A DNA stretch of 64,000 bases, taken from the NCBI RefSeq assembly GCF_003074135.1, contig NZ_PPDK01000001.1, forward strand, positions 2,852,001-2,916,000, read 5' to 3'. Below are positions 21,634 to 36,547 of this stretch, piece by piece; within the stretch, counting starts at the first letter, position 1; the number at the start of each line of letters is the position of its first letter. The stretch comes from Euzebya tangerina (lineage in GTDB: Bacteria; Actinomycetota; Nitriliruptoria; Euzebyales; Euzebyaceae). The notes beneath the pieces are model-generated. The model had not been told where the DNA came from. It did no database searches and saw nothing but the letters and a program-made list of their open reading frames with translations. A program made the position numbers and the translations under genes.

Positions 21634-24600
21634 ATGCACGACGCACTGACGGATCTCGAGGACCACCTGGCCACACGTGTCAGCCCTGAGCGGCTGGACA
21701 ACGCCACCGCGCTGGCCTGGTCGACCTATCGCCGCCTGGCAGACGACGAACTGGCCACGCTCGACCTCGATGCCGCCGCGGTCACGGTCGATCGTGCCCT
21801 GCAGCTGTTCGAGACCGGTCGTCCGGGAACGCCGACGATCCTGATCGAGGACTCGGGCGACTCGAGCATCCTGCTGGTCCACATCGCCGACGGGCCCTTC
21901 ATGATGTCGACGATCCTCGAGGAGCTCCATCGTCTGGACCTCGAGCCCGTCGACCTGGCCCACCCCGCGGTCGGGGTTCGCCGCGACGCCGATGGTCGAC
22001 TCGTGGAGATCACCGCCGCTCGCGGGGCATCCCATCGCGAGGCCTACATCTCCCTTGACTTGCAGACCCGCCTGTCGGACGAGCAGAAGCAGGTCGTCGT
22101 TGATCGGCTGCACGCCGTCCTGGCCGACGCGCTCAGGGTGGTCGAGGACTTCCGCCCGATGACAACGGCGCTCGAGGCTGTGGTGACAGCCATGGAGGCA
22201 CACGGGGACAGCGAGGAAGCCGAGTTCCTGCAGTGGCTGCTGGACGATCACTTCGTGTTCCTCGGCTATCGCAGTGGCGCCGACGGTCTTGGCCTGCTGC
22301 GGGACGAGAGCAGCGTGTCGCTGGATGAGCTCGACGGCCACGACTGGGCCGACAGTCCGGTGCTCGACGTCACCCGCACCGCGGGCGTCTCGCCGGTGCA
22401 CCGCCAGGTCCGGATGACCTCGATCGCCGTGCGCCCGCCCCACCGGGATGGCGATCGTGCCGACGAGCACCGGATCCTCGGTCTGTTGGCCCAGAAGGCC
22501 TTCGTCCAGCCGTCGTCGACGGTTCCGGTGTTGCGGCGGAAGCTCCGAGCCGTACTGGACGACGTGGACGTGGTCGACCACTCCCAGGATGAACGCGCCA
22601 TCCGGACGCTGTTCGATGCGCTGCCCAAGCAGGAGCTGTTCGAGCTGACCCATGACGCGCTGCGGGACGCGCTGATCAACCTGGTCGACGTCAGCCGTCG
22701 GGGCGGCGTCCGGCTGACGGTCCGTCGCGAACGAAACGGTCGCTCGGTGTCGGTGCTGGTCACGCTGCCACGCGAGCGCTTCTCCGCGGCACTCCGTGAG
22801 GAGATCCAGCAGCTGCTGGCCGGGCGGTTGGGGGCCACATCGGTCGACTACCAGCTCTCCTTGACCGAGCGGGACCAACCCCTGCTGCACTTCACGCTGC
22901 AGTCGGACGATGGGCTGGACCCAGCCCCGATCGACCTGGATGCCCTGCAACGGGAGATCACCTCGCTGGCGCGGACCTACACCGATGCGTTGGCCGCTGC
23001 CCTGGTTCCGCACCGAGGGTCCGATGAGGCCCGGTCGGTCGCCAAGGCGTGGTGTGCCGGGCTGCCGCCCGCCTACACCGAGACGACGCCGATCGCGATG
23101 GCCACCATCGACATCGAGGAGCTCGAGCGCCTGGATGGGCCGGATGCGGTCCGGATGCGGCTGGTCGAGCCGGCCGGAACGGGCAGCACGGGTCGGCCGG
23201 GTCTGCTGCGCTTCCGGCTGTACAAGTCAGGCCCGGGTGTCGAGCTGTCCGACTTCCTGCCGCTGCTCGAATCGATGGGGCTGACGGTGGTCGAGGAGCA
23301 GCCGTACGCCCTGCTGGAGGCGCCCGTCTGGGACGAGGTGCACATCCACGACTACGGGGTCCGCAGCTCGGTGGGGGAGATCGATGTGGCCAGCGACGGC
23401 CCGCGGATCGCCGCAGCCGTCGCGTCGATGTGGTCGGGGAGGAGTGAGGTCGACTCGCTCAACCGGCTGGTCATCGCCGCCGACACGGGGATAGACCTGG
23501 TGACCGTCCTGCGGGCCTACCGCCGCTACGGACGACAGGTCGGCACCAGCTACACCGAGGCCACCATCAACGACGCGCTGCTCGAGCACCCTCGCGTGGC
23601 AGCCGCGCTGCTCGCCTACTTCGAGGCCCGGTTCGACCCGGCACGTCCGGACTCCGAGCGGCAGGCAGCCGAGGAGGCAGCACGAGCGGCCGTAACTGCC
23701 TCGCTGGAGGAGGTCGCCAGACTGGACCAGGATCGGATCCTGCGGACCTTCCTGGGACTGATCGACGCCACGCTGCGGACCAACGTGTGGCAGCGCCGCC
23801 CGTGGCTGTCGTTCAAGTTCGACAGCGGACGGGTCCCCGAGGTGCCCAAGCCGGTGCCCTACCGGGAGATCTTCGTCTACTCCGCAGCCATGGAGGGCGT
23901 TCACCTCCGCGGGGGGCCGATCGCCCGGGGCGGGCTGCGGTGGTCCGACCGGGTCGATGACTTCCGCACGGAAGTGCTCGGTCTGATGAAGGCCCAGATG
24001 AGCAAGAACGCGGTGATCGTGCCGACCGGCTCCAAGGGCGGGTTCGTGCTGAAGGCCCGACCGGACGACCGGGATGCCCTGGCTGAGGCGGTCCGTGCCC
24101 AGTACCGGGTCTTCATCAGCGGGCTGCTCGACCTCACCGACGACCTCGACGGGGAGACCGTGGTCCCGCCGAACGACGTCGTCCGGCACGACGATGCTGA
24201 TCCCTACCTCGTCGTCGCGGCCGACAAGGGCACGGCGACCTTCTCGGACCTGGCCAACAGCATCAGCCAGGAGTATGGCTTCTGGCTGGACGATGCGTTC
24301 GCCTCCGGCGGATCCCAGGGCTACGACCACAAGGCGATGGGCATCACTGCGCGGGGTGCCTGGGTCGCGGTGCAGCGCCACTTCCGCGAGCTCGGCATCG
24401 ACGTCCAGGAGGAGCCGATCGACGTCGTCGGCGTCGGTGACATGTCCGGGGATGTCTTCGGCAACGGACTGCTCCGCAGCAAGGCCGTTCGTCTCGTCGC
24501 GGCGTTCGACCATCGCGACATCTTCATCGATCCGGCACCGGATCCGGCCACCTCCTACGCCGAGCGACAGCGTCTCTACGAGCTTCCTCGCTCGACCTGG

Positions 24601-26322
24601 CAGGACTACGACCGGGCGCTCATCAGCTCCGGCGGCGGCGTGTGGTCACGGACCTCGAAGTCGGTTCCGCTCTCGCCAGAGGCCCGCGAACTCCTCCGCA
24701 TCGATCAGGAGGAGATCAGCCCACCGGAGCTCATCTCCGTCCTCCTCCGCGCCCACGTCGACCTGCTGTGGTTCGGCGGCATCGGCACCTACGTCAAGTC
24801 GCCGGACGAGTCGCACACCGAGGTGGGCGACCGGGCCAACGATGCCATTCGGGTCAACGCCAACGAGGTCGGCGCTCGAGTTGTCGGCGAGGGTGGCAAC
24901 CTGGCGATGACCCAGCGTGGGCGGATCGCCTACAGCCGTCGTGGCGGCCGTTGCAACACCGACGCCATCGACAACGTGGCCGGCGTCAACACCTCCGACC
25001 GTGAGGTCAACCTGAAGATCCTCCTGCGCCGCGCCATCGAGGCGGGCACCCTCGACCCGACGAAGCGGGACGACCTGCTCGCCTCCCTCACCGACGAGGT
25101 CGGGGACGCGGTGCTCCGGGACAGCTACAAGCAGACCTGGGCGATCAGTCAGGAGGTCAACGCCACACCGGGTGGGATGGGGAGCTACGAGGACCTGATG
25201 GCCCGGTTGGAGGAGCAGGGCCGCCTGGACCGCGATGTCGAGGTGCTGCCGGACACTGCGGAGATGATCCGGCGTCGGGCCGACGGTGCCATCCTCACCC
25301 GGCCCGAGCTCAGCGTCCTACTGGCCTACAGCAAGATCGACCTGACCGACCAGCTCCTGGCCTCCGACATCATCGACCAGCCGGTCGTGGCCGCGATGGC
25401 ACGGGAGTACTTCCCCGACACCGTGTCGGAGCGATTCCCCGAGGCGATCGAGTCCCATCAGCTGCGCCGCGAGATCGTTGCCACGGTCGTGGCTGGCGAC
25501 GTGTGCGATCGGATGGGCATCACCTGGGCCGGACGAGTTGCCGGCGATCTCGGGGTGGACATCCCGACCGTTGTCGGGGCCTACTGGATCGCGCGCGGTG
25601 TGATCCAGGCTGACCAGAGCTGGCGTCGTGTCGAGCGCCTCGACGGCCGTGCCGATCCGGTCCTGCAGTTCGAGCTCAAGGGCGCGATCGACTGGCTGGT
25701 GGATGCCTTCACCCGCTCCTACATCCGACAGGGGAGGACCAACGACATCGCGGCGGCCATCGATGTCGACCGGCCGGTGCTGGTCGAGTTGTGTGCCGCG
25801 GACGCTGCGGCGGATCGTTCGAGCGCGATGCGCCTGACCCGCCAGGCGGCGCAGCGGTGGGTCGACCTCGGCATCGATGAACAGGTCGCAGAGGACATCG
25901 CCCTGCTGCCATCACTCAGCCTGGTGCCGGGCATCTCCGCAACGGCGGCACGAAGTGGCCGTTCCGTAGCCGACTGCGGCGAGGTCTATGCGCTGCTGGC
26001 CGCTCGACTGCCGATCGAGGGCCTCTCACACCGGCTGCAGCGCTACGAGCCGCACGGTCGCTGGGAGCGCGGGCAACATCGCGGACTGATCGACGATCTG
26101 CGGCGGCTGCAGCACGGGCTGGCCCGTCTGGCCATCGACGAAGCCGGGCCCTCGGAGGACCCCGCCGCCATCGTCACCACTGCGCTCGCCCGTCGTTCCG
26201 ACGCGCTGCAGGCTGCGGAGTCCATCGCCGCCGCGGTGTTGGCCCAACCGGACGTCGATCTCAACGCCGTTGCGGTTGCGGTCAGGTCGTTGGCGGCGCT
26301 GTGGACCGACTCAGGTCACTAG
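21634..26322 (+). CDS. gdh: Large NAD-specific glutamate dehydrogenase (L-GDH, about 170-180 kDa class)
   Basis: This 1,562-residue protein oxidises glutamate to 2-oxoglutarate with NAD. The N-terminal ACT-like and regulatory half (about 1-690) is followed by the conserved catalytic core: RGGPIARGGLRWSDR and a DFRTEVLGLMKAQMSKNAVIVPTGSKGGFV stretch near residue 765-810, GDMSGDVFGNG near 935, and WFGGIGTYVKSP near 1050. A long C-terminal helical region completes the L-GDH family. The length matches the Streptomyces clavuligerus/Mycobacterium-type enzymes. GGCGGGAGAGCG precedes the ATG. In actinobacteria it usually serves glutamate catabolism and is tightly regulated. It ends head-on with citrate synthase. 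Confidence 0.95.
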   Translation: MHDALTDLEDHLATRVSPERLDNATALAWSTYRRLADDELATLDLDAAAVTVDRALQLFETGRPGTPTILIEDSGDSSILLVHIADGPFMMSTILEELHRLDLEPVDLAHPAVGVRRDADGRLVEITAARGASHREAYISLDLQTRLSDEQKQVVVDRLHAVLADALRVVEDFRPMTTALEAVVTAMEAHGDSEEAEFLQWLLDDHFVFLGYRSGADGLGLLRDESSVSLDELDGHDWADSPVLDVTRTAGVSPVHRQVRMTSIAVRPPHRDGDRADEHRILGLLAQKAFVQPSSTVPVLRRKLRAVLDDVDVVDHSQDERAIRTLFDALPKQELFELTHDALRDALINLVDVSRRGGVRLTVRRERNGRSVSVLVTLPRERFSAALREEIQQLLAGRLGATSVDYQLSLTERDQPLLHFTLQSDDGLDPAPIDLDALQREITSLARTYTDALAAALVPHRGSDEARSVAKAWCAGLPPAYTETTPIAMATIDIEELERLDGPDAVRMRLVEPAGTGSTGRPGLLRFRLYKSGPGVELSDFLPLLESMGLTVVEEQPYALLEAPVWDEVHIHDYGVRSSVGEIDVASDGPRIAAAVASMWSGRSEVDSLNRLVIAADTGIDLVTVLRAYRRYGRQVGTSYTEATINDALLEHPRVAAALLAYFEARFDPARPDSERQAAEEAARAAVTASLEEVARLDQDRILRTFLGLIDATLRTNVWQRRPWLSFKFDSGRVPEVPKPVPYREIFVYSAAMEGVHLRGGPIARGGLRWSDRVDDFRTEVLGLMKAQMSKNAVIVPTGSKGGFVLKARPDDRDALAEAVRAQYRVFISGLLDLTDDLDGETVVPPNDVVRHDDADPYLVVAADKGTATFSDLANSISQEYGFWLDDAFASGGSQGYDHKAMGITARGAWVAVQRHFRELGIDVQEEPIDVVGVGDMSGDVFGNGLLRSKAVRLVAAFDHRDIFIDPAPDPATSYAERQRLYELPRSTWQDYDRALISSGGGVWSRTSKSVPLSPEARELLRIDQEEISPPELISVLLRAHVDLLWFGGIGTYVKSPDESHTEVGDRANDAIRVNANEVGARVVGEGGNLAMTQRGRIAYSRRGGRCNTDAIDNVAGVNTSDREVNLKILLRRAIEAGTLDPTKRDDLLASLTDEVGDAVLRDSYKQTWAISQEVNATPGGMGSYEDLMARLEEQGRLDRDVEVLPDTAEMIRRRADGAILTRPELSVLLAYSKIDLTDQLLASDIIDQPVVAAMAREYFPDTVSERFPEAIESHQLRREIVATVVAGDVCDRMGITWAGRVAGDLGVDIPTVVGAYWIARGVIQADQSWRRVERLDGRADPVLQFELKGAIDWLVDAFTRSYIRQGRTNDIAAAIDVDRPVLVELCAADAAADRSSAMRLTRQAAQRWVDLGIDEQVAEDIALLPSLSLVPGISATAARSGRSVADCGEVYALLAARLPIEGLSHRLQRYEPHGRWERGQHRGLIDDLRRLQHGLARLAIDEAGPSEDPAAIVTTALARRSDALQAAESIAAAVLAQPDVDLNAVAVAVRSLAALWTDSGH

Positions 26323-26326
26323 CCGA

Positions 26327-27616
26327 TCAACCCCGGCTCTCGATCGGGACGTAGGTCCGCTCTGAGGAGCCTTGGTAGATCTGCCGTGGCCGGCCGATGC
26401 GGGTCTCCGGATCCGCCATCATCTCCTTCCACTGGGCGATCCAGCCCGGTAGACGACCGATGGCGAACATGACGGTGAACATCTCCTCGGGCAGCCCCAT
26501 GGCCCGATAGATCAGGCCGGAGTAGAAGTCGACGTTCGGGTACAGCTTCTTCTCGATGAAGTAGTCGTCCTTGAGCGCGACCTCCTCGAGCTCCTGAGCG
26601 ATCTCGAAGAGCGGGTCGTTGGGGATCAGCTTGCGCAGGACCCGGTCGGCGGTCTCCTTGATGATGGTCGCCCGCGGGTCGAAGTTCTTGTAAACGCGGT
26701 GGCCGAAGCCCATGAGGCGGAACGGGTCGTCCCGGTCCTTCGCCCGGGCGATGAAGGAGGCCGTGTCGCCGTCTGCGTCCCGGATCTCGGTCAGCATCTC
26801 CAGCACCGCCTGGTTGGCGCCGCCGTGCAGCGGCCCCCACAGGGCGTTGATACCGGACGCGATTGCGGCGAACATGTTGACCTGGGTCGAGCCGACCAGT
26901 CGGACGGCTGAGGCGCTGGCGTTCTGCTCGTGGTCGGCGTGCAGGATGTAGAGCAGGTCCAGCGCTTTCGCGACCTCGGGATCGACCTCGTACGGCTCGG
27001 CCTTCACCGCAAACATCATGTGCAGGAAGTTCTCGGGATAGGACAGCTTGTTCCACGGGTAGATGAAGCGCTGCCCGATGGACTTCTTGTACGACCAGGC
27101 GGCGATGGTGGGCAGCTTGGCCATGAGCCGGTAGATCGAGACCTCGACGTCGCGTTCGTCCAGGGGGTCGTAGTGGTCCTGGTAGAACGTGGAGAGGCCG
27201 GCCACGGCCGCTGACAGGATCGCCATCGGGTGGGCGCTCTTGGGGAAGGCGTCGAAGAACTGCCGCATGTCCTCGTGCAGCAACGTGTGGATCGTGATCT
27301 GGTGTTCGAAGTCGTCAAGGGTCGCCTGATCGGGCAGATCGCCGTAGATGAGCAGGTAGGCGGTCTCGAGGAACGAGGAGCTCTCCGCCAACTGCTCGAT
27401 CGGGTACCCCCGATAGCGCAGGATGCCAGCCTCGCCGTTGAGATAGGTGATCTCGCTCTGACAGGAGGCCGTCGACGCAAAGCCCGGGTCATACGTGGTC
27501 AGGCCCGTCGCCCCGCGCAGCCCGGAGGAGTGGATGCCTCGCTCCCCTTCCGTGCCGGTCACGACCGGCGCGTCGAAGCTCTCCCCGTTCAGTGCAATGG
27601 TGGCGTGGTCAGTCAT
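26327..27616 (-). CDS. gltA: Citrate synthase (type II, hexameric class)
   Basis: This 429-residue protein condenses oxaloacetate and acetyl-CoA, the entry step of the TCA cycle. The catalytic triad is visible: H264 (GPLHGGANQ), H306 (MGFGHRVYK) and D363 (YPNVDFYSG). The N-terminal beta-sheet extension and the length match the E. coli-like type II class. The ATG at 27616 is supported by a GGAGA about 10 bases upstream; longer in-frame starts are not supported. It is divergent from the GH13 gene across 146 bases with no obvious operator. Confidence 0.95.
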   Translation of the reverse strand: MTDHATIALNGESFDAPVVTGTEGERGIHSSGLRGATGLTTYDPGFASTASCQSEITYLNGEAGILRYRGYPIEQLAESSSFLETAYLLIYGDLPDQATLDDFEHQITIHTLLHEDMRQFFDAFPKSAHPMAILSAAVAGLSTFYQDHYDPLDERDVEVSIYRLMAKLPTIAAWSYKKSIGQRFIYPWNKLSYPENFLHMMFAVKAEPYEVDPEVAKALDLLYILHADHEQNASASAVRLVGSTQVNMFAAIASGINALWGPLHGGANQAVLEMLTEIRDADGDTASFIARAKDRDDPFRLMGFGHRVYKNFDPRATIIKETADRVLRKLIPNDPLFEIAQELEEVALKDDYFIEKKLYPNVDFYSGLIYRAMGLPEEMFTVMFAIGRLPGWIAQWKEMMADPETRIGRPRQIYQGSSERTYVPIESRG

Positions 27617-27762
27617 CGGGGCAGATCTCCGGTCTGTAGGTGGTCCTGGTGGTCTGGTGCGGTCGTGGCGGTGACGACGTGGGCTGCAGGTACCAACGCT
27701 AGCGGACGCACCCAGCGGCAGTATTCCCCGATCCACAAACGACACGCATCGGCAACACGTGG

Positions 27763-29505
27763 GTGGCACGCTACGCCTCGATGGACGCCGAGGTGTTCGA
27801 AGCCGCCGTCAGGGATCACGCTGTGGCCCTGTACGGCGCGGGGGACGCGGAGCGGTTGGTCCGGGGCCTGCAGGCCCTCGCCGACCAGGCCTGGATGTCG
27901 ACCACGCCACGTGGACTGGACCACGCCGACGTCTGGTTGATCGCCTACGCCGATCACGTCCGGGACGCCGGGGACCCTCCAGCGGAGCGGACGCCCTTGC
28001 AGGTCATGGCAGCGCTGCTGGAGGAGGAGTTGGCCGATGTCGTCTCCGGGGTCCACCTGCTGCCCTTCTATCCCTGGACCTCCGACGACGGCTTCGCGGT
28101 CATCGACCATCTGGCCGTCGATCCTGGCGTCGGATCGTGGGCGGACCTCTCGGCGATCGGTGCCACCCACCGGCTGATGGTCGATGGTGTGGTCAACCAC
28201 GTGTCGGCGTCGCACCCCTGGGTCGCGGCATGGCTGGCCGACGGGCGGGACGGGTGGATCCTCGAACCGGACGCCGAGATGGACACCTCGGCAGTCGTCC
28301 GGCCTCGCACCGCTCCGCTGCTGACCGCATTCGAGGACGCGGCCGGCCGGACCCGGCAGGCCTGGACCACCTTCGGGCCGGATCAGGTCGACCTGGACTA
28401 CGGCAACCCCGACCTGCTGCTGGCGATGACAGAGATCCTGCTCACCTACGTGCGGCATGGCGCTTCGGTGATCAGGCTGGACGCCGTGGGGTTCCTGTGG
28501 AAGGCCTCGGGCACCACCTGCATCCACCTTCCCCAGACCCATGAGATCGTCCGCCTGTGGCGGACGGTCATGGACCACCTCGCACCCGGGACCATGCTGA
28601 TCACCGAGACCAACGTGCCCCATGACGAGAACGTGAGCTACTTCGGCGTCGGGAGCGACGAGGCACACCTCGTCTACCAGTTCCCGCTGGCCCCGCTGGT
28701 CCTGGCCGCCTACGTGTGGGGCAATGCCCAGGATCTGTCACGCTGGGCCGCAGCCCTGGCTGACCCGCCCGTCGGGTGCACCTACTTCAACTTCCTGGCC
28801 TCACACGATGGCATCGGGCTGCGACCAGCCGAGGGACTGCTGTCCGCAACCCAGATCCGGGGGCTGTGCAACCTGGCGAGGTCGACCAGTGGCGGGGTCA
28901 GCTACCGCACCGACGTCGATGGCTCGGAGGACCCCTACGAGCTCAACACCACCTACGTCGATGCGCTGTTGGCCGTGGCAGACGATGGGCTGGGTGTGGC
29001 GCGGGTCATCGGGGCGCACGCGATCCTCCTGGCGCTGCAGGGCGTTCCTGGCATCTGGTTGGGATCCCTCTTCGGCCAGTCGGGAGATCCTTCGCTGGTG
29101 GAGCAGACGGGCCGTCTTCGATCGATCAACCGGGCGCGGCTGTCACTCGAGTCGCTCCGGGCCGCACTCGAGGATTCCCGGACGGTTGAGCAGGGCGTCT
29201 TCGAGGGGATCAGTCGTCTGGTCCGACTCCGACGAGCACACCCGGCGCTGGCCCCCGACAGCCCCCAGCACATCCTGCCGACCCCCGGCTGGCTGGTCGG
29301 CATCGTCCGCGGTCGCGCCGGTCACCGGGTCTTCGTCATCGTCAGCGTGTCGAACCGGGACCGCTCGGTGATCCCCTCCGACCTCGTCGGACGATCGACC
29401 TGGCGTGACGCGCTCGCCGCGCAGGACGGCCGCGACATCGAGGCGGGCGACGTCGTGGTGCTCCCCCCCTACGGCGTCATGTGGCTGGAGGAGATTGGAT
29501 CCTGA
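27763..29505 (+). CDS. GH13 subfamily-18-type sugar phosphorylase, probable glucosylglycerate phosphorylase
   Basis: This 580-residue alpha-amylase-fold protein shows LLPFYPWTSDDGF near residue 100 and VDGVVNHVSASHPW near 140. The nucleophile is D240 (VIRLDAVGFLWK), followed by TTCIHLPQTHEIV, and the acid/base is E282 (LITETNVPHDENVSYFG). This signature belongs to sucrose and related glucosyl phosphorylases (GH13_18). Its end lies about 390 bases from gpgS on the opposite strand, so glucosylglycerate phosphorylase (releasing glucose-1-phosphate and glycerate) is the favoured substrate call over sucrose. That choice is inference from context. Confidence 0.82.
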   Translation: MARYASMDAEVFEAAVRDHAVALYGAGDAERLVRGLQALADQAWMSTTPRGLDHADVWLIAYADHVRDAGDPPAERTPLQVMAALLEEELADVVSGVHLLPFYPWTSDDGFAVIDHLAVDPGVGSWADLSAIGATHRLMVDGVVNHVSASHPWVAAWLADGRDGWILEPDAEMDTSAVVRPRTAPLLTAFEDAAGRTRQAWTTFGPDQVDLDYGNPDLLLAMTEILLTYVRHGASVIRLDAVGFLWKASGTTCIHLPQTHEIVRLWRTVMDHLAPGTMLITETNVPHDENVSYFGVGSDEAHLVYQFPLAPLVLAAYVWGNAQDLSRWAAALADPPVGCTYFNFLASHDGIGLRPAEGLLSATQIRGLCNLARSTSGGVSYRTDVDGSEDPYELNTTYVDALLAVADDGLGVARVIGAHAILLALQGVPGIWLGSLFGQSGDPSLVEQTGRLRSINRARLSLESLRAALEDSRTVEQGVFEGISRLVRLRRAHPALAPDSPQHILPTPGWLVGIVRGRAGHRVFVIVSVSNRDRSVIPSDLVGRSTWRDALAAQDGRDIEAGDVVVLPPYGVMWLEEIGS

Positions 29506-29656
29506 CGGCTCGAACACCCTCAGGTCCGTCCGCGGGTCCCTACGGTGTGACTGGTCGCTGTGGAGCGTTGGCCGTCGGTGGGACAATCGCCACCTGCGGT
29601 GAACTCGGCTACTGCTGAGACCAAACCCGTCGCGAAGAACCTGCGAGGAGCGCGTC

Positions 29657-29863
29657 ATGAACGACGCAAGACACCAACAATTGATGTTCGCCACCTACGT
29701 CGCGTTCGGATTCATCGGAAGTCTGATCATCGCCTGGATCATGCTCGACAGCGCGTTGTCGGCGTTGGGCATTGCAGCAATCGTGGGACTCGGTTGCGGC
29801 GTCGGCTACGCGATAGGGCGGCTCGTCATCGACGGGCCGTCAAAGGGGGCCCGAGACGGTTAG
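29657..29863 (+). CDS. Small two-span membrane protein
   Basis: This 68-residue protein has a polar N-terminus and two hydrophobic Gly-rich helices (about residues 9-27 and 34-55; IAAIVGLGCGVGYAIGRLV), reminiscent of AtpI-like or small glycine-zipper proteins. GAGGAG lies about 8 bases before the ATG. It follows the phosphorylase by 150 bases and converges with gpgS. Function unknown. Confidence 0.6.
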   Translation: MNDARHQQLMFATYVAFGFIGSLIIAWIMLDSALSALGIAAIVGLGCGVGYAIGRLVIDGPSKGARDG

Positions 29864-29892
29864 GCCGGAGGCTCCAGACGGTTAGATCGGTC

Positions 29893-30858
29893 TCATGGGG
29901 CGGTGGCACGGTACTCAACCATCGGTGGTCGCTCGATGATCTCGATCTGGCCGGCTTCCAGCAGGTTGACGGTGTCGTCGGCGTCGCGCTGGAACTGCCG
30001 GTAGGCCGTCGGCAGATCCGGGAACGTTGCCCGACCCGCATCGGGCAGCCGACGGAGTGCGGCCTGGGCAACACCGAACGCCATGCGGGACAGCGCCGTG
30101 ATGTCCTGGTTCCGATGGATGCGCTGGCCGATGTCCACCTGCGCGATCGCGTCGGCACCGCGGCGGCCCAACGTATCGATCAGCATGCCGATCTCCACGC
30201 CGTACCCCGTCGAGAACGGGATGGACTCGAGCAGCTCTCGGCGGCCGGCGTACTCGCCCGAGAGAGGCTGGACCAGCCCGGACAGCTCCGGCCAGAACAG
30301 GTTCAGCAGCGGTCGGGCCAGCAGCTCGGTGACCCGCCCGCCACCAGCCGGGTGCAGGGTGCCGTTCAGCTCGATGGGCCGGTCGTAGAAGGCCTTGACC
30401 AGCTCGATCTGCGGCGTGGTGATCAGGGGCGCGACCAGTCCGCTGACGAAGATCGGGGACGGGTTGCGGATGTCGGTGTCGACGAAGGTGATGATGTCGC
30501 CGCTGGTGACCGACAACGACCGCCACAGCGCATCGCCCTTGCCGAGTGCCGGGCCGAGGTCGGGGAAGGCCCCGATGTCGGTGTGGACGCGGGCGCCTCG
30601 GTCAGCCGCCACCTCCGGCGTCGCATCGGTGGACCCGCCGTCCAGCACGACCACCTCGTCCACCAGGACGCCGGCCAACGACATGACGGCATCGATGACG
30701 TCGCCGATGGTCGGGGCCTCGTTGTAGGCCGGCAAGACGACGCTGACCGAGAGGCCCTGATCGGCCTTGGCCCACGCAGCGGCCTCCAGGTCCAGGCTGC
30801 GGGACTCGAAGGTGCGACGTCGATACCACTCAGCGACGTCGAAGTCGGGGATCTGCAT
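29893..30858 (-). CDS. gpgS: Glucosyl-3-phosphoglycerate synthase
   Basis: This 321-residue GT-A glycosyltransferase (GT81 type) transfers glucose from a nucleotide sugar to 3-phosphoglycerate, the first step to glucosylglycerate and, in some actinobacteria, to methylglucose lipopolysaccharides. Visible are SVVLPAYNEAPTIG near residue 40, EVVVLDGGSTDAT near 70, GKGDALWRS, the metal-binding D127-T-D129 (VDTDIRNP), and FYDRPIELNG...GGGRVTELLARPLLN with the family's long C-terminus. The gene starts 27 bases after the cupredoxin stop and so looks like the distal gene of the oxidase operon. No GpgP phosphatase is visible nearby. Confidence 0.92.
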   Translation of the reverse strand: MQIPDFDVAEWYRRRTFESRSLDLEAAAWAKADQGLSVSVVLPAYNEAPTIGDVIDAVMSLAGVLVDEVVVLDGGSTDATPEVAADRGARVHTDIGAFPDLGPALGKGDALWRSLSVTSGDIITFVDTDIRNPSPIFVSGLVAPLITTPQIELVKAFYDRPIELNGTLHPAGGGRVTELLARPLLNLFWPELSGLVQPLSGEYAGRRELLESIPFSTGYGVEIGMLIDTLGRRGADAIAQVDIGQRIHRNQDITALSRMAFGVAQAALRRLPDAGRATFPDLPTAYRQFQRDADDTVNLLEAGQIEIIERPPMVEYRATAP

Positions 30859-30885
30859 GGCTATCTCAGCGTCAGCAGTGCTCGG

Positions 30886-31509
30886 TCAGCTGAAGGTGAT
30901 ATCGCCCTCCATGCCGGCGGCGCGGTGACCGGCGATGGAGCAGAAGTAGGTGTAGGTCCCGGGGTCGATCGTGATGGTGGTCACGTCGATCCCGTTGGTG
31001 GCCTCGACCAGGACCGAGTCACCCTGGAAGCCCTCGATGACGACGTTGTGGACCTGCCCCGAGGAGTTGTCGATCGCGACGGTCACCTCGCCAGCCGGTG
31101 CTTCGGCCGGCGCTGAGGTGTAGACCAGCGAGCTGTCCGCCCCCCAGACCAGTGCCCCCTCCGGGATCTCGGTGACGGCAGCATCACCGCCCTCCTCGCC
31201 CTCACCACCGTGCTCCTCGATCTCGCGCACGCCCACGCTGGCAGCTACGCCGCCCGCACCGACCAGTCCGAGCATGGCGATGGTCAGGCCGACGGCCAGA
31301 GCTGGTGCGGAGATGTTGCGACTGCGCTCGACGACGAAGGCGACGACCAGTACGTAGGCAGCCGCGACGACGGCCACCAGGACGCTGATGGACTTCGGGA
31401 CCGCCAGCAGGATGCGAGACAGCGACCACGCGAACAGCAGGATGCCGCCCAGGATCGTCACCGGCATCAGGATCGGCGTGAACACTCGCCGCCGAAAACT
31501 CTCGTTCAT
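30886..31509 (-). CDS. Membrane-anchored cupredoxin (blue-copper domain)
   Basis: This 207-residue protein has three predicted spans (about residues 11-34, 40-61 and 69-92), then an acidic Glu/Gly linker and a C-terminal plastocyanin-like domain (about 125-207) on the outer face. Copper ligands H154 (GQVHNVV), C190, H195 and M200 (FCSIAGHRAAGM) are all present. It probably shuttles electrons or copper at the caa3 oxidase. Its ATG overlaps the stop of ctaG (ATGA) within the oxidase operon. The upstream longer frame has no ribosome-binding site and overlaps ctaG, so MNESF is the start. Confidence 0.85.
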   Translation of the reverse strand: MNESFRRRVFTPILMPVTILGGILLFAWSLSRILLAVPKSISVLVAVVAAAYVLVVAFVVERSRNISAPALAVGLTIAMLGLVGAGGVAASVGVREIEEHGGEGEEGGDAAVTEIPEGALVWGADSSLVYTSAPAEAPAGEVTVAIDNSSGQVHNVVIEGFQGDSVLVEATNGIDVTTITIDPGTYTYFCSIAGHRAAGMEGDITFS

Positions 31510-32402
31510 GGGGTCTTCTCGCCTCGTTGTTCGGTGAGTTCGGGAATCATGTCGGTCCCGGCGTAGTCCCGCCAGTACAGGAAGTCGGGTTCGCCGCGCT
31601 TCTCCTCCCGGGACCAGCGGAAGAACATCACGGCGATGATGCTCCACATGAACAGGCCACCGCCGATCTTCATGATCAGTCCGGCGATCTGGAGGTCAAC
31701 AACCGGTGTGATGGCCTCCCAGATCCGTGGGGCCGACGCGTAGGAGGTGTAGATGGCCGCGGAGGAGAACGTCAGGAACGATGCCGGCACGGTCGGCACG
31801 ATCGAGTGGCTGAACAGGTAGGCCATGCGGCCGAGGTAGCTGTAGTGCGGCAGCTCCGGCAATGGGGAGAAGACCGGCCACCACATCAGCAGGCCGACCA
31901 GCACCCACATGACGTGGGTGAAGAGGTGGAACAGGCCGTTGGTCACGCTCGTGTCCACCCACAGGGGCGTGTGGGCGATCGCCACGAAGGTGTTGACCAG
32001 CACGATCGCTGGCAGGGGTTTGGTGGCCGCGCGAACGATGCGCGTCAGACGTGGTGTCAGCAGCGCCCGGAACAGCCACGCCGGTGTCCCGAGCAGCAGC
32101 AGCGGCGCGGCGGCCAACTGGAACAGCAGGTGCTGCACCATGTGGACGCTGTAGAGGTAGTCCTCGCCCAGGCTGTGGATCGGCCAGCTGCCGCCGATGA
32201 GGAACAGCATGACGCCGCCGTAGAACATGGCCTTCTGCTGCCGCGTGGCAAAGCCGGTGCGGCGCAGATGGGCGGGGGCGTGCGTCGGCCCCAGGGTGCT
32301 CAGCAGGTAGGCGTAGCCACCTGCGAGCAGGACGACCAGCAGCAGGATGTCCGGGAAGAACTGGAACCTGACCGCGGTGGAGAACTCGACGGGAGGGGGC
32401 AT
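31506..32402 (-). CDS. ctaG: Cytochrome c oxidase assembly protein CtaG (caa3 type)
   Basis: This 298-residue multi-span protein has about seven hydrophobic helices and family signatures: KAMFYGGVMLFLIGGSWPIHSLGEDYLYSVHMVQHLLFQ (about residues 55-95), a WVDTSVTNGLFHLFTHVMWVLVGLLMWWP stretch and the C-terminal GGGLFMW.I...FF.W. The conserved histidines likely bind copper for Cu-centre assembly, as proposed for caa3-type CtaG. It overlaps ctaF by 1 base and the cupredoxin gene by 4. Confidence 0.92.
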   Translation of the reverse strand: MPPPVEFSTAVRFQFFPDILLLVVLLAGGYAYLLSTLGPTHAPAHLRRTGFATRQQKAMFYGGVMLFLIGGSWPIHSLGEDYLYSVHMVQHLLFQLAAAPLLLLGTPAWLFRALLTPRLTRIVRAATKPLPAIVLVNTFVAIAHTPLWVDTSVTNGLFHLFTHVMWVLVGLLMWWPVFSPLPELPHYSYLGRMAYLFSHSIVPTVPASFLTFSSAAIYTSYASAPRIWEAITPVVDLQIAGLIMKIGGGLFMWSIIAVMFFRWSREEKRGEPDFLYWRDYAGTDMIPELTEQRGEKTP

Positions 32403-32743
32403 CAGAACCCCTGGGGGTCCAGTCCGTTGCTGCCGAGGAACCAGTCAGCTGCGACGACCGCGAAGATGACGGCTGCCAATGCCAGGCCTCCCACGAACAT
32501 GCGCCGCAGCGCTGGGTGATCGAAGCGCAGGTGCATGAACCAGGCACCCACCAGAACGAACTTACCGAGGGTGAGGATGATCAGCGAGGGCGTGGTCACG
32601 GCCCGGCCCAGTGACTCGCGGAAGACGTAGAGGAGGACCTCGACGGTCGTCATGACGGCCAGGATCCCGGCGATCTGCAGGTAGGCGCCGCGGGATGGGC
32701 CGTGGTGCTCCTGCTCGGTGTCGTCGGCGGTTTGTTGAGCCAT
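32402..32743 (-). CDS. ctaF: Cytochrome c oxidase subunit IV (prokaryotic type)
   Basis: This 113-residue protein has three spans (about residues 22-44, 51-70 and 82-102) with the family pattern TTVEVLLYVFRESLG...LGKFVLVGAWFMHLRFDH. It stabilises the oxidase core. It sits 22 bases after subunit III, and its stop overlaps the ctaG start. Confidence 0.9.
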   Translation of the reverse strand: MAQQTADDTEQEHHGPSRGAYLQIAGILAVMTTVEVLLYVFRESLGRAVTTPSLIILTLGKFVLVGAWFMHLRFDHPALRRMFVGGLALAAVIFAVVAADWFLGSNGLDPQGF

Positions 32744-32765: not shown

Positions 32766-33383
32766 CTAGCCGACGGGGATGAGGTAGATGACGGTGAAGA
32801 TCACGATCCACACGATGTCGACGAAGTGCCAGTACAGGCCAACCAGTTCGACGGTCTCGAGGTGCTTGTCGGCGGTGATGCCGCCCCGCAGGGACAGTGC
32901 CCAGAGCGCCACCAGCATCACCACCCCGACGGTGACGTGAACGCCGTGGAAGCCGGTCAGCATGAAGAACGAGACGCTGAAGGGGCTCGTTTCGAGCTTG
33001 AAGCCCTCCTCCACGAAGAAGGCGAACTCATACATCTGGCCGGCCAGGAAGACCATGCCCATCAGCGCGGTGGCCAACGTCCAGGTCTGGAAGGCCCGCA
33101 TGTCCCGGCGCTGCAGCGCGTCCAGCGCCAGCACCATGCCGAGCGAGGACATCAGCAGGATGAACGTCGAGGCCGAGGTGAACGGGATGTCGAAGACGTC
33201 GAACGCGGTGAGCCCGTCGTTCGTCCGATTCAGGTAGAGCAGGTAGGTCGCGATCATCGCGCCGAAGAACAGGCACTCCGACCCGATGAAGGTCCACATG
33301 CCCAACTTCTCGTTGGACATGCCGAGGTTGGTGGTGTGGCCGTGATCGGCCGCCGCGTGGTCGGCTGCGTCCACGGTGCTCAT
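32766..33383 (-). CDS. ctaE: Cytochrome c oxidase subunit III
   Basis: This 206-residue protein has five predicted helices, the compact bacterial form of COX3. Motifs include SNEKLGMWTFIGSECLFFGAMIATYLLY near residue 24, the GMVFLAGQMYEF region, FFMLTGFHGVHVTVGV near 135 and a LYWHFVDIVWIVIFTVIYL C-terminus. It starts at the ATG at 33383, overlapping the ctaD stop by one base. The much longer in-frame extension to 34268 is a shadow of ctaD. Confidence 0.94.
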   Translation of the reverse strand: MSTVDAADHAAADHGHTTNLGMSNEKLGMWTFIGSECLFFGAMIATYLLYLNRTNDGLTAFDVFDIPFTSASTFILLMSSLGMVLALDALQRRDMRAFQTWTLATALMGMVFLAGQMYEFAFFVEEGFKLETSPFSVSFFMLTGFHGVHVTVGVVMLVALWALSLRGGITADKHLETVELVGLYWHFVDIVWIVIFTVIYLIPVG

Positions 33384-35356
33384 CAGTGGTGCTCCTCTGC
33401 GGAGGGCTCCAACGCCCAGCCGAGCATCGAGCCGAACGTGAGGATGCCACCGACCGCGAAGAAGGCGGTCATCGTCAGACGGTCCTCGAAGAAGACGCCG
33501 TAGGCCGCGATCGGCAGACCGAGCGAGAGTAGCAACGGGAACCACGACGGATCCGGCATGTGGATGCCGAGTTCCTTCGCGGTCTTGCCGCTCACCTTGT
33601 CGCCGTAGGGGCCACCGGGGTTCTCGTCGTCGGCCCCGCCGGCCGCGACCCGGACGGGTGTGCCGGAGTCGTCGGAGGCGTACTTGCGATACCACAACTC
33701 GTCGTTGTCGCTGATCTGGGGGATCTGGTCGAAGTTGTGGACTGGTGGTGGGGAGGAGGTCAGCCACTCCACGCTCCGTGCATCCCACGGGTCCGCGCCG
33801 GCGGGCGGGTTGTTGCGCGAGAGGAAGATGTTGGCCACGAAGATCAGGAAGGAAACCCCGATCACGAGGGCCCCGAGTCCGACGACCGCGTTCCACACGT
33901 TCCAGCCCATGCCGTCGGCGTAGGTGTAGTAGCGACGGGGCATGCCGTTCAGACCCAGGAAGTGCATCGGGCCGAAGGTCAGGTTGAAGCCGACCAGCAT
34001 CGACCAGAAGTGGATCTTGCCGATCCGTTCGTTGAGCAGCTTGCCGAAGACCTTGGGGTACCAGAAGTAGATGCCACCGAAGAGTCCGAACAGTGCCCCA
34101 CCGAAGAGGACGTAGTGGAAGTGGGCGACCACGTAATAGGTGTCGTGCTGCTGGGTGTCGTGGGGGACCAGGGAGTGCGTGACCCCGGAGAGGCCGCCGA
34201 TGGTGAACATCGACACCAGCCCGATCGCGAACAGCATCGGGGTGGTGAACCGGATCTGCCCACCCCACATCGTGCCCAGCCAGTTGAAGATCTTGATGCC
34301 GGTCGGGACCGCGATGAGCATGGTGGCGATGCCGAAGGCGGAGTCAGCGACCGGGCCGAGGCCGGCGGTGAACATGTGGTGGGCCCACACACCCCAGCCG
34401 AGGAAGCCGATGGCGATCCCGCTGAACACGATCGCGGAGTAGCCGAACAGCGGCTTGCGGCTGAACACCGGGAGGATCTCGGAGACGATCCCGAACGCCG
34501 GCAGGATCATGATGTAGACCTCTGGATGCCCGAAGAGCCAGAACATGTGCTCCCACAGGACGGGGTCGCCACCGTTGAGCGGGTCGAAGAAGGGACCGGC
34601 GAAGCGGACCTGGAACATCATCTGCCACAGCGCGATCCCGATGATCGGCATGGCGAACAGCAGCAGGAACGCGACGACGAAGCTCATCCAGGTGAACACC
34701 GGCATGCGCATCATCGTCATGCCCGGTGCGCGCATGTTGAGCACCGTCACGATGAAGTTGACGGCACTGGCCAGCGATGCCACACCGGCGATCTGCAGGC
34801 CCATCGAGTAGAACAGCGTCCTCGACTGCTGGATCGCCACCGCGTCGGCCGCGAGGTTCCCGGCCGGGTCGGGACCGACCAGCGCCTGGGGGAAGTAGGA
34901 GACCCAGGAGCTGTTCGGCGCACCCTCGAACAGGAACGAGCTGTAGACGAAGAGGCCCGCAACGATCCAGATCCACAGACTCACCGCGTTGATCCGCGGG
35001 AACGCGACGTCACGCGCCCCGATCTGCAGCGGGAGCAGGTAGTTGATGAAGGCGGCGCCCAGCGGCATCACCACGAAGAAGACCATCGTCAGGCCGTGCA
35101 TCGTGAAGATCTGGTTGTAGGCATCCGCCGACAGGACCTCACCGTTGGGTGTGGCCAGCTGCGCGCGGATCAGGAGCGCCTCCAGACCTCCGACGACGAA
35201 GAAGATCAGCGCCCCAACGCCGTACATGATGCCGATCCGCTTGTGATCGACCGTCGTCAACCACGAGACCACGCCCGTGGTCTTGGTCGGGCGCGGGAAG
35301 ATGCCGCGACGACGTGGGCGGGTCGCGGTCTCCGGGTTCTCTGCGATGGCGGTCAC
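33383..35356 (-). CDS. ctaD: Cytochrome c oxidase subunit I (A1-type heme-copper oxidase)
   Basis: In this 657-residue catalytic subunit the low-spin heme ligand candidate is H87 (FTMHGLT), with H414 as partner. CuB ligands are H277, H326 and H327, the cross-link Tyr is Y281 and the D-channel glutamate is E279 (GHPEVY). H412 (AHFHYVL) should ligate the high-spin heme. A C-terminal extension of about 100 residues reaches two further spans, typical of caa3/SoxM-type subunit I. The presence of E279 makes it an A1-type proton pump. It is the second gene of the operon, 3 bases after ctaC. Confidence 0.96.
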   Translation of the reverse strand: MTAIAENPETATRPRRRGIFPRPTKTTGVVSWLTTVDHKRIGIMYGVGALIFFVVGGLEALLIRAQLATPNGEVLSADAYNQIFTMHGLTMVFFVVMPLGAAFINYLLPLQIGARDVAFPRINAVSLWIWIVAGLFVYSSFLFEGAPNSSWVSYFPQALVGPDPAGNLAADAVAIQQSRTLFYSMGLQIAGVASLASAVNFIVTVLNMRAPGMTMMRMPVFTWMSFVVAFLLLFAMPIIGIALWQMMFQVRFAGPFFDPLNGGDPVLWEHMFWLFGHPEVYIMILPAFGIVSEILPVFSRKPLFGYSAIVFSGIAIGFLGWGVWAHHMFTAGLGPVADSAFGIATMLIAVPTGIKIFNWLGTMWGGQIRFTTPMLFAIGLVSMFTIGGLSGVTHSLVPHDTQQHDTYYVVAHFHYVLFGGALFGLFGGIYFWYPKVFGKLLNERIGKIHFWSMLVGFNLTFGPMHFLGLNGMPRRYYTYADGMGWNVWNAVVGLGALVIGVSFLIFVANIFLSRNNPPAGADPWDARSVEWLTSSPPPVHNFDQIPQISDNDELWYRKYASDDSGTPVRVAAGGADDENPGGPYGDKVSGKTAKELGIHMPDPSWFPLLLSLGLPIAAYGVFFEDRLTMTAFFAVGGILTFGSMLGWALEPSAEEHH

Positions 35357-35359
35357 GCG

Positions 35360-36547
35360 TTACTCCAAGGTTGCGAGGTAGGCGATGATGGCGTCGAGTT
35401 GCTCACCGTTGATCGGCTCGCCGTCGACCTGAGTGGCCGGCATGTGGGAGCCGGGTTTGATCCCCGATGAGTTGCGGATCCACGCACGCAGGTTCTCCAT
35501 GGCCTCGTCCGGGTTCTCCACCTGGTCCCCGAACGGTGAGTCGAAGATGTAGCCGGCGAAGGCCTCACGGGCGGCGAAGTGCGTCAGGTCCGGCCCGACG
35601 CGCGAGGGGTTGTCGGGATCGACGTCAGGGTGCCCCGTGATGTTGTGACAGCCGATGCACGCGCCGGTGACGAACAGCTCCTGCCCCTGGGTGACCAACT
35701 CGTCCTCGGCCAGTGGTGCCGGCTCCTGCTGCGAGGCCACCCAGGCCTCGTAGTCCTCGGGAGCGTGCGCGATCACCGTGAAGCGCATGTTGGCGTGCGA
35801 CAGGCCGCAGAACTCCGCGCAGTTCCCCGGATAGATCCCCGGTTCGTCGGCCTGGATGCGCATCTCGCGGATGGCACCCGGCACGTAGTCGCGCTTCCCG
35901 GCGAGCGAGGGCACCCAGAAGGAGTGCAGCACCGGTGCGTGGCCGTACACGTTGGTGTTGCCCGGCTCGGAGCCGTCCAGCCGGATGTAGATGTCGCGTC
36001 CGGTCGGGATGTGCAGCTCCGAGGCCGTCCAGATCCCGGCCTCCTCGTAGCGGAACTCCCACCAGTACTGCTTGCCGACCACATCGATCATCAGGGCGTC
36101 GGGGTCCGGCTCGCGGGCCAGGTCGAAGATGGTCCTGACGGTGGGCACGGCGATCACGACCAGGATGAGCGCAGGGATGATCGTCCAGACGATCTCCAGG
36201 CGGGTGTTGCCGTGCGTCTGGACCGGCAGCTCCTCCTGCCCCTTGTCCCGGAACCGGACGATGATGTAGGCCAGCCCGGCGAAGACGAACACGAACACGC
36301 CGATGGCGATCGGATACGCCAGGTCCCACAGGGCGTCCTGGTCGGCGGCGACGGGGCCCAGGGGTTGGAGCGCATCGGCCGGCAGTTCACGCCCGGGGTC
36401 TGGGCCCGGGATGTTCGCGGTGGGGCTCCCGTCGAAGTCACGGGAGCACCCGGCCAGCACGCCGGAGAGCAGCCCGACCGCCAGGAGCAGTCGTACCCGC
36501 GCGGACGACAGGTGTCCTCCGAGCCGGCTGAGCGAGGCAGGCCTCAT
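35360..36547 (-). CDS. ctaC: Cytochrome c oxidase subunit II fused to cytochrome c (caa3 type)
   Basis: This 395-residue protein has a lipoprotein signal (LAGC, C34), two spans (about 78-98 and 118-138), and a CuA cupredoxin domain with ligands H208, C243, E245 carbonyl, C247, H251 and M254. A C-terminal class-I cytochrome c follows, with heme attachment C297-x2-C300-H301 and a likely axial Met in GSHMPATQ. The fusion lets the complex accept electrons without soluble cytochrome c. It is the first gene of the oxidase operon, and the divergent region 36548-36749 contains two inverted repeats. Confidence 0.95.
   Translation of the reverse strand: MRPASLSRLGGHLSSARVRLLLAVGLLSGVLAGCSRDFDGSPTANIPGPDPGRELPADALQPLGPVAADQDALWDLAYPIAIGVFVFVFAGLAYIIVRFRDKGQEELPVQTHGNTRLEIVWTIIPALILVVIAVPTVRTIFDLAREPDPDALMIDVVGKQYWWEFRYEEAGIWTASELHIPTGRDIYIRLDGSEPGNTNVYGHAPVLHSFWVPSLAGKRDYVPGAIREMRIQADEPGIYPGNCAEFCGLSHANMRFTVIAHAPEDYEAWVASQQEPAPLAEDELVTQGQELFVTGACIGCHNITGHPDVDPDNPSRVGPDLTHFAAREAFAGYIFDSPFGDQVENPDEAMENLRAWIRNSSGIKPGSHMPATQVDGEPINGEQLDAIIAYLATLE

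Follow-up and report, generated by a model that had tools for sequence, protein, structure and literature searches.

Genes for glucosylglycerate (GG) phosphorylases (GGaP) are accompanied by genes for glucosyl-3-phosphoglycerate synthase (GpgS), GpgP or glycerate kinase in Meiothermus silvanus, Spirochaeta thermophila and, in the case of YcjM, E. coli, and the metabolic function of GGaP lacks experimental confirmation according to the same review (PMC7178133). Mycobacteria have a GG hydrolase (PMC11009771), and M. tuberculosis uses GpgS for methylglucose lipopolysaccharide (PMC2581804). The reasons for which bacteria make and break GG are still loosely understood. Here, we analyzed a 64,000-nucleotide stretch of the Euzebya tangerina contig NZ_PPDK01000001.1 (hereafter, the window), in which the gene for GpgS (gpgS) is the final gene of a caa3-type cytochrome oxidase run and faces the gene for a GH13_18-type enzyme, a predicted GGaP.

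The window resembles the published GGaP loci in that its GH13 enzyme has the two GGaP marks and its gene adjoins a glucosyl-3-phosphoglycerate synthase gene. Here, however, the two genes are convergent, gpgS closes the likely caa3 operon, and GGaP diverges from a citrate synthase gene. The synthase shares its family and catalytic residues with mycobacterial GpgS, whereas a predicted phosphorylase is encoded instead of the mycobacterial hydrolase. The oxidase genes are those of caa3-type operons (ctaC, which includes a cytochrome c domain, ctaD, subunits III and IV, and ctaG), but behind them come a cupredoxin gene and gpgS and then, still on that strand, citrate synthase. An earlier reading of the window (hereafter, the sequence-only reading) linked osmolyte or storage metabolism to respiration, a pairing that it took to be undescribed. 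In agreement with this, we found no description of the link between caa3 and gpgS in the open-access literature (subscription journals were mostly outside the scope of the search). The gpgS-GGaP neighborhood is already published (PMC7178133).

Linkage of gpgS to the caa3 oxidase genes

All genes of the caa3 run lie on one strand in the order ctaC-ctaD-III-IV-ctaG-cupredoxin-gpgS, with successive gaps of 3, -1, 22, -1, -4, and 27 bases (subunit III taken from ATG 33383). The cupredoxin stop codon (TGA, 30886-30888) and the gpgS start codon (ATG, from 30858) are exactly 27 bases apart, the distance given in the sequence-only reading. To place this arrangement, we used 66 genomes of the class, including 30 from the window's order, with gpgS called at E <1e-30. 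The gene was present in 23 of the 30 genomes, and in all 23 (the window and 22 other stretches) it comes immediately after, and is co-oriented with, the caa3 cupredoxin gene. The linkage of caa3 and gpgS is therefore real anatomy, conserved across the order. Outside the genus, the GpgS proteins of the order are 53–64% identical to that of the window, and retention of the position in 22/22 other loci at this level of identity is more than chance. The oxidase gene ctaD was found in 20 of the 22 stretches (the other two, L078 and L090, start inside the operon), and ctaG was recognised in 16 of 22 (E 1e-10). The ends of the conserved block are sharp: the sensor kinase adjoining ctaC recurs in four of the 22 stretches and its regulator in three, although the stretches reach unevenly far.

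Among the 22 relatives, the gap between cupredoxin and gpgS ranges from -23 to 115 bases (starts chosen automatically). With these automatic starts, the gpgS start overlaps the cupredoxin stop in eight relatives, and overlaps of the TGATG and ATGA types are seen in the junction sequences. Because of the common strand, the short gaps, the start-stop overlaps in relatives and the order-wide linkage, gpgS seems to belong to the caa3 transcription unit, and its co-transcription with the oxidase genes is likely, in keeping with what had been proposed from the window's letters.

A reverse comparison started from the 26 genomes of the order in which the cupredoxin junction was covered: gpgS is the next gene in 23 and citrate synthase follows directly in three. 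In these three gpgS-less genomes (G017, G020, and G028), citrate synthase comes straight after cupredoxin on the same strand; the block from ctaC to citrate synthase is complete in G020 and G028, and the G017 stretch covers subunit III to citrate synthase. Four genomes (G004, G005, G021, and G022) have no gpgS and a block that was not found or was cut, and were counted neither way. As a separate observation, the cupredoxin-citrate synthase stretch of all three gpgS-less loci examined for it (L209, L210, and L231) has a similar GGTAGGCTGCC or GGTACGCTGCC string, which is perhaps a citrate synthase promoter.

The partner gene is less uniformly placed. GGaP faces gpgS in 18 of the 23 genomes; among the other five, G027 carries it on another contig, and G010, G014, G019, and G024 have only weak matches, to other GH13 proteins (E 1e-28 to 1e-26). 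Conversely, wherever GGaP is present in the order (19 genomes, E <1e-140), gpgS is present as well (19/19). In a ctaD tree of 26 rows, each of the order's three groups includes genomes with both genes, and the two gpgS-less tips sit in a group of four that have no GGaP. The simpler reading of this pattern would be that GGaP was lost first and gpgS later, with the base forks of the ctaD tree left open.

Identity of the synthase and of the GH13 enzyme

The gpgS product scores 377.6 bits against NCBIfam NF010496, the glucosyl-3-phosphoglycerate synthase equivalog (cut-off 262). Its nearest solved proteins in the PDB carry the same name (E 4.1e-77; GpgS entries at 244–263 bits) and are mycobacterial. 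Residues D126, D128, T176, and H247 are invariant in an alignment of 14 sequences. In M. tuberculosis GpgS, Asp136 binds the metal, Thr187 binds the acceptor, and His258 lies in a loop (PMC2581804); D128, T176, and H247 are their counterparts in the window protein, an equivalence drawn from motif context, not structure. The assignment as gpgS made in the sequence-only reading is thus well supported, with the synthase activity predicted from homology.

The GH13 protein has an alpha-amylase domain (Pfam), and the nearest named solved proteins are glucosylglycerol and sucrose phosphorylases; the top match is titled only 'Aamy domain-containing protein'. The catalytic residues, namely nucleophile D240, E282, and D349, are all present. 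GGaP differs from sucrose phosphorylases in two marks, a (T/S)ETN motif on beta-strand 5 and, in loop A, a Glu in place of the Gln of most other clades (PMC7178133). The window enzyme carries both, as ITETN (containing E282) and as SEDPYELN in loop A. Aligned over 572 positions, it shares 41% identity (419 bits) with E. coli YcjM, which is annotated as a GGaP and counted among them in PMC7178133.

In a tree of 39 proteins, 35 fall on the YcjM side, including the window enzyme, and four on the sucrose-phosphorylase side, with a split support of 100/100; both marks occur in 35/35 of the former and 0/4 of the latter. The rows were selected by likeness to the window protein, YcjM is the sole characterised GGaP among them, and the program flagged one long branch, that of an Enterococcus sucrose phosphorylase, and an uneven letter composition, also in YcjM. 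The tree therefore gives group placement, not proof of substrate. Sucrose phosphorylase was considered and rejected as a name for the enzyme: the score against TIGR03852 (sucrose_gtfA) is 142.3 bits (cut-off 334.4), and the N(L/V)D(I/L/V)YQ loop is absent, with SEDPYE in its place. Assignment to the glucosylglycerate phosphorylase type and not to the sucrose-specific type is supported by these comparisons. Together, the two proteins make a candidate make-and-break pair for glucosylglycerate that is well supported by homology, and the sequence-only proposal that the GH13_18 neighbor could degrade GG gains from the two marks and the likeness to YcjM. A putative GGaP group in deep-branching actinobacteria is also indicated, ready for assay.

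A possible glucosylglycerate cycle and its relation to respiration

We consider it quite probable that the caa3 operon ends with gpgS and that GGaP is the opposing catabolic gene, in the following scheme. GpgS would join glucose from a sugar nucleotide to 3-phosphoglycerate, and a phosphatase would then release GG as the end product. GGaP would split GG with phosphate to yield glucose 1-phosphate and D-glycerate, the latter of which a type-1 glycerate kinase would return to glycolysis. Phosphorolysis of GG keeps the sugar phosphorylated without an ATP cost. Expression of gpgS would follow the oxidase promoter by read-through from the caa3 operon, so that GG synthesis may be tied to aerobic growth, and GGaP would be read from a separate promoter, lying between it and the divergent citrate synthase gene. 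The comparisons establish gene identities by homology together with order, strand, spacing, and order-wide conservation; that glucosylglycerate is physiologically connected with respiration is put forward here as a hypothesis. A synthase that stands behind a terminal oxidase order-wide, together with a probable breaking enzyme divergent from citrate synthase, offers a direct way to ask about a respiration-linked reserve of carbon or charge.

The genome supplies part of this pathway outside the window. A type-1 glycerate kinase is encoded elsewhere (334.5 bits). Neither a MOFRL-type glycerate kinase nor GH63, presumably the family of the mycobacterial GG hydrolase, was found in the genome, and the block between ctaC and glutamate dehydrogenase contains no gene recognisable as one for a phosphatase or a glycerate kinase. 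The histidine phosphatase family PF00300 occurs at nine places in the genome, and five of these nine proteins gave no score over the cut-off against NCBIfam. As a candidate GpgP, a HAD protein resembling mannosyl-3-phosphoglycerate phosphatase (MPGP) was rejected as a general Hydrolase_3.

Several observations weigh against the scheme. The search of the genome for an MPGP-type GpgP gave nothing over the cut-off (best 58.1 vs. 164.75 bits), and among three of the five PF00300 proteins, compared with solved structures, L185 is weakly like a solved GpgP (E 2.5e-12) and better matched by phosphoserine phosphatase (1.4e-17). Thus, the phosphatase that the sequence-only reading suggested looking for elsewhere was not settled by the PF00300 and MPGP-type searches. 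The 27-base gap before gpgS is the widest of the caa3 operon, and together with gaps of up to 115 bases in relatives it makes an internal promoter possible. A simple scan of the gap found neither terminator-like nor sigma-70-like sites, although such a scan is of no help in a high-GC genome; at 67% GC, the sigma-70 result (0 found vs. 0.4 expected) says little. The caa3 operon stays in place where gpgS is absent, showing that gpgS is not needed for the oxidase, and the conservation of gene order may have causes unconnected with GG.

Nor was the arrangement seen in the sister families. There, 25 of 36 genomes have gpgS-like matches (<1e-30), and in the 23 surroundings covered (all but those of G035 and G045; 3.5–19.9 kb) caa3, cupredoxin, ctaG, citrate synthase, and GGaP are beside gpgS in 0/23. 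We also inspected named gpgS loci, the best 80 of at least 584. Two of these 80 have the block, namely L105 (Nitriliruptorales bacterium) and L106 (Egibacter sp.), which are identical to records G014 and G013. The remaining 78 (3.6–21 kb) have caa3, citrate synthase or dehydrogenase in 0/78, and a GGaP-like gene (>250 bits) is near gpgS in 13 of these 78 loci outside the order.

The explanation that competes best, and that we judge to be evenly balanced, is that gpgS is a passenger at the end of a conserved oxidase-citrate synthase block, with a borrowed promoter or one of its own, and that GG is unlinked to respiration. It would contradict only the physiological part of the scheme above. The block without gpgS in G020 and G028, along with its subunit III-citrate synthase part in G017, agrees with this explanation, as do the location of gpgS away from caa3 in the sister families and the open-access literature, in which we found no functional link between GG and respiration. 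The position kept in 23/23 genomes and the start-stop overlaps speak against a separate promoter there, but not against passenger status as such.

A second alternative, in which GpgS supplies, as it does in mycobacteria, a methylglucose-lipopolysaccharide-like polymer and not a free osmolyte, appears improbable to us. It draws on M. tuberculosis, in which GpgS is a key enzyme of the methylglucose lipopolysaccharide pathway (PMC2581804) and whose kind of GpgS is the closest solved, on the unsettled GpgP, and on the five of 23 genomes in which gpgS has no adjoining GGaP; against it, a GGaP, whose substrate is free GG, stands opposite gpgS in the other 18. A third alternative, a GH13_18 phosphorylase that acts on sucrose or differs in some other way, is very unlikely for the GH13 enzyme given both GGaP marks, the missing sucrose-phosphorylase loop motif and the low sucrose_gtfA score, even though amino-acid marks do not equal assays and a bifunctional, sucrose-active GG phosphorylase (XpGP) exists (PMC11009771).

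The preferred scheme, with gpgS as the last gene of the oxidase operon and GGaP opposed to it, can be carried further in a form that we regard as doubtful, in which the caa3 oxidase, gpgS, GGaP, citrate synthase, and NAD-glutamate dehydrogenase genes constitute one module for carbon, nitrogen, and energy. GG can replace glutamate as an anion under nitrogen shortage, and certain organisms accumulate it at high salinity and nitrogen starvation (PMC11009771). In such a module, GG, a nitrogen-free organic anion, might be made during oxidase expression and might replace glutamate when nitrogen is short, and, whenever carbon is needed for respiration, phosphorolysis might feed it back into glycolysis and the step catalysed by citrate synthase. 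The synthase gene would then be tied to the oxidase promoter and GGaP to the citrate synthase promoter region.

Layout of the locus and further reading frames

The features of the locus are listed in Table 1. The stops of GGaP and gpgS are separated by 387 bases. Citrate synthase and GGaP diverge across 146 bases (164 with a GGaP start at ATG 27781), and NAD-glutamate dehydrogenase, convergent with citrate synthase, forms the outer border of the conserved block. Within the oxidase run, the cupredoxin start codon (ATG) shares four bases with the ctaG stop, and subunit III may start at ATG 33383, which has one base in common with the ctaD stop, or at GTG 33374. The ctaG product stays under its NCBIfam equivalog cut-off (110.8 vs. 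279.35 bits). Rfam at gathering scores had no match between 26000 and 38500.

Table 1 Features of the gpgS-GGaP locus, given as positions within the 64,000-nucleotide window of Euzebya tangerina contig NZ_PPDK01000001.1.
Feature	Position	Strand	Remarks
NAD-glutamate dehydrogenase, large type	21634-26322	+	PF05088 811 bits
Citrate synthase, 429 amino acids	26327-27616	-	NF004126 669.2 bits, cut-off 505 (on longer reading frame)
GGaP, predicted GH13_18-type glucosylglycerate phosphorylase, 580 amino acids	27763-29505	+	GTG start 27763; in-frame ATG 27781 is a possible start
gpgS, predicted glucosyl-3-phosphoglycerate synthase, 321 amino acids	29893-30858	-	Final gene of caa3 run; ATG start, TGA stop
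Spacer, cupredoxin stop to gpgS start, 27 bases	30859-30885	none	
Cupredoxin gene	30886-31509	-	PF00127 26.7 bits, cut-off 21.2 (on longer reading frame)
ctaG, caa3 assembly factor	31506-32402	-	PF09678 154 bits
caa3 subunit IV	32402-32743	-	TIGR02229 43 bits, cut-off 37.25
caa3 subunit III	32766-33383	-	PF00510 (COX3) 73.2 bits on longer reading frame
ctaD, oxidase subunit I	33383-35356	-	TIGR02891 675.5 bits, cut-off 670.75
ctaC, oxidase subunit II with fused cytochrome c domain	35360-36547	-	PF02790, PF00116, PF00034; TIGR02866 189.1 bits, cut-off 147.7

Three further open reading frames (ORFs) overlap or adjoin the two GG genes. The longest citrate synthase ORF (26327-27769, - strand) overlaps the GGaP start by seven bases, and homology points to ATG 27616 as the true start. 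Between GGaP and gpgS lies an ORF of 68 amino acids (29657-29863, + strand) with a GAGGAG string seven bases 5' of its ATG; its product is probably a small membrane protein, and it has no relative below E 0.3 among 264 loci, window copies aside. An ORF of 518 amino acids (29560-31116, + strand) runs antisense to gpgS, and its matches in 22/22 relatives fall where gpgS is conserved, so they give no evidence of a gene.

Beside the sister-family gpgS genes, a weak response-regulator match lies directly downstream in 10 of 23 stretches (L094, L098, L249-L252, L256, L258, L259, and L261). Eight ORFs beside these gpgS genes were compared with Pfam: seven, probably in wrong frames, had no match, and one, the ORF downstream in L094, is a receiver domain. 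The window also encodes an amino-acid permease with universal stress protein domains (39652-42036, + strand), about 9 kb from gpgS. The C-terminal part of this permease, with its universal stress protein domain, is matched in 28 of the 80 named gpgS loci, these being among L107-L184 and outside the order, by a region that lies on the same strand as gpgS and ends within 250 bases upstream of it.

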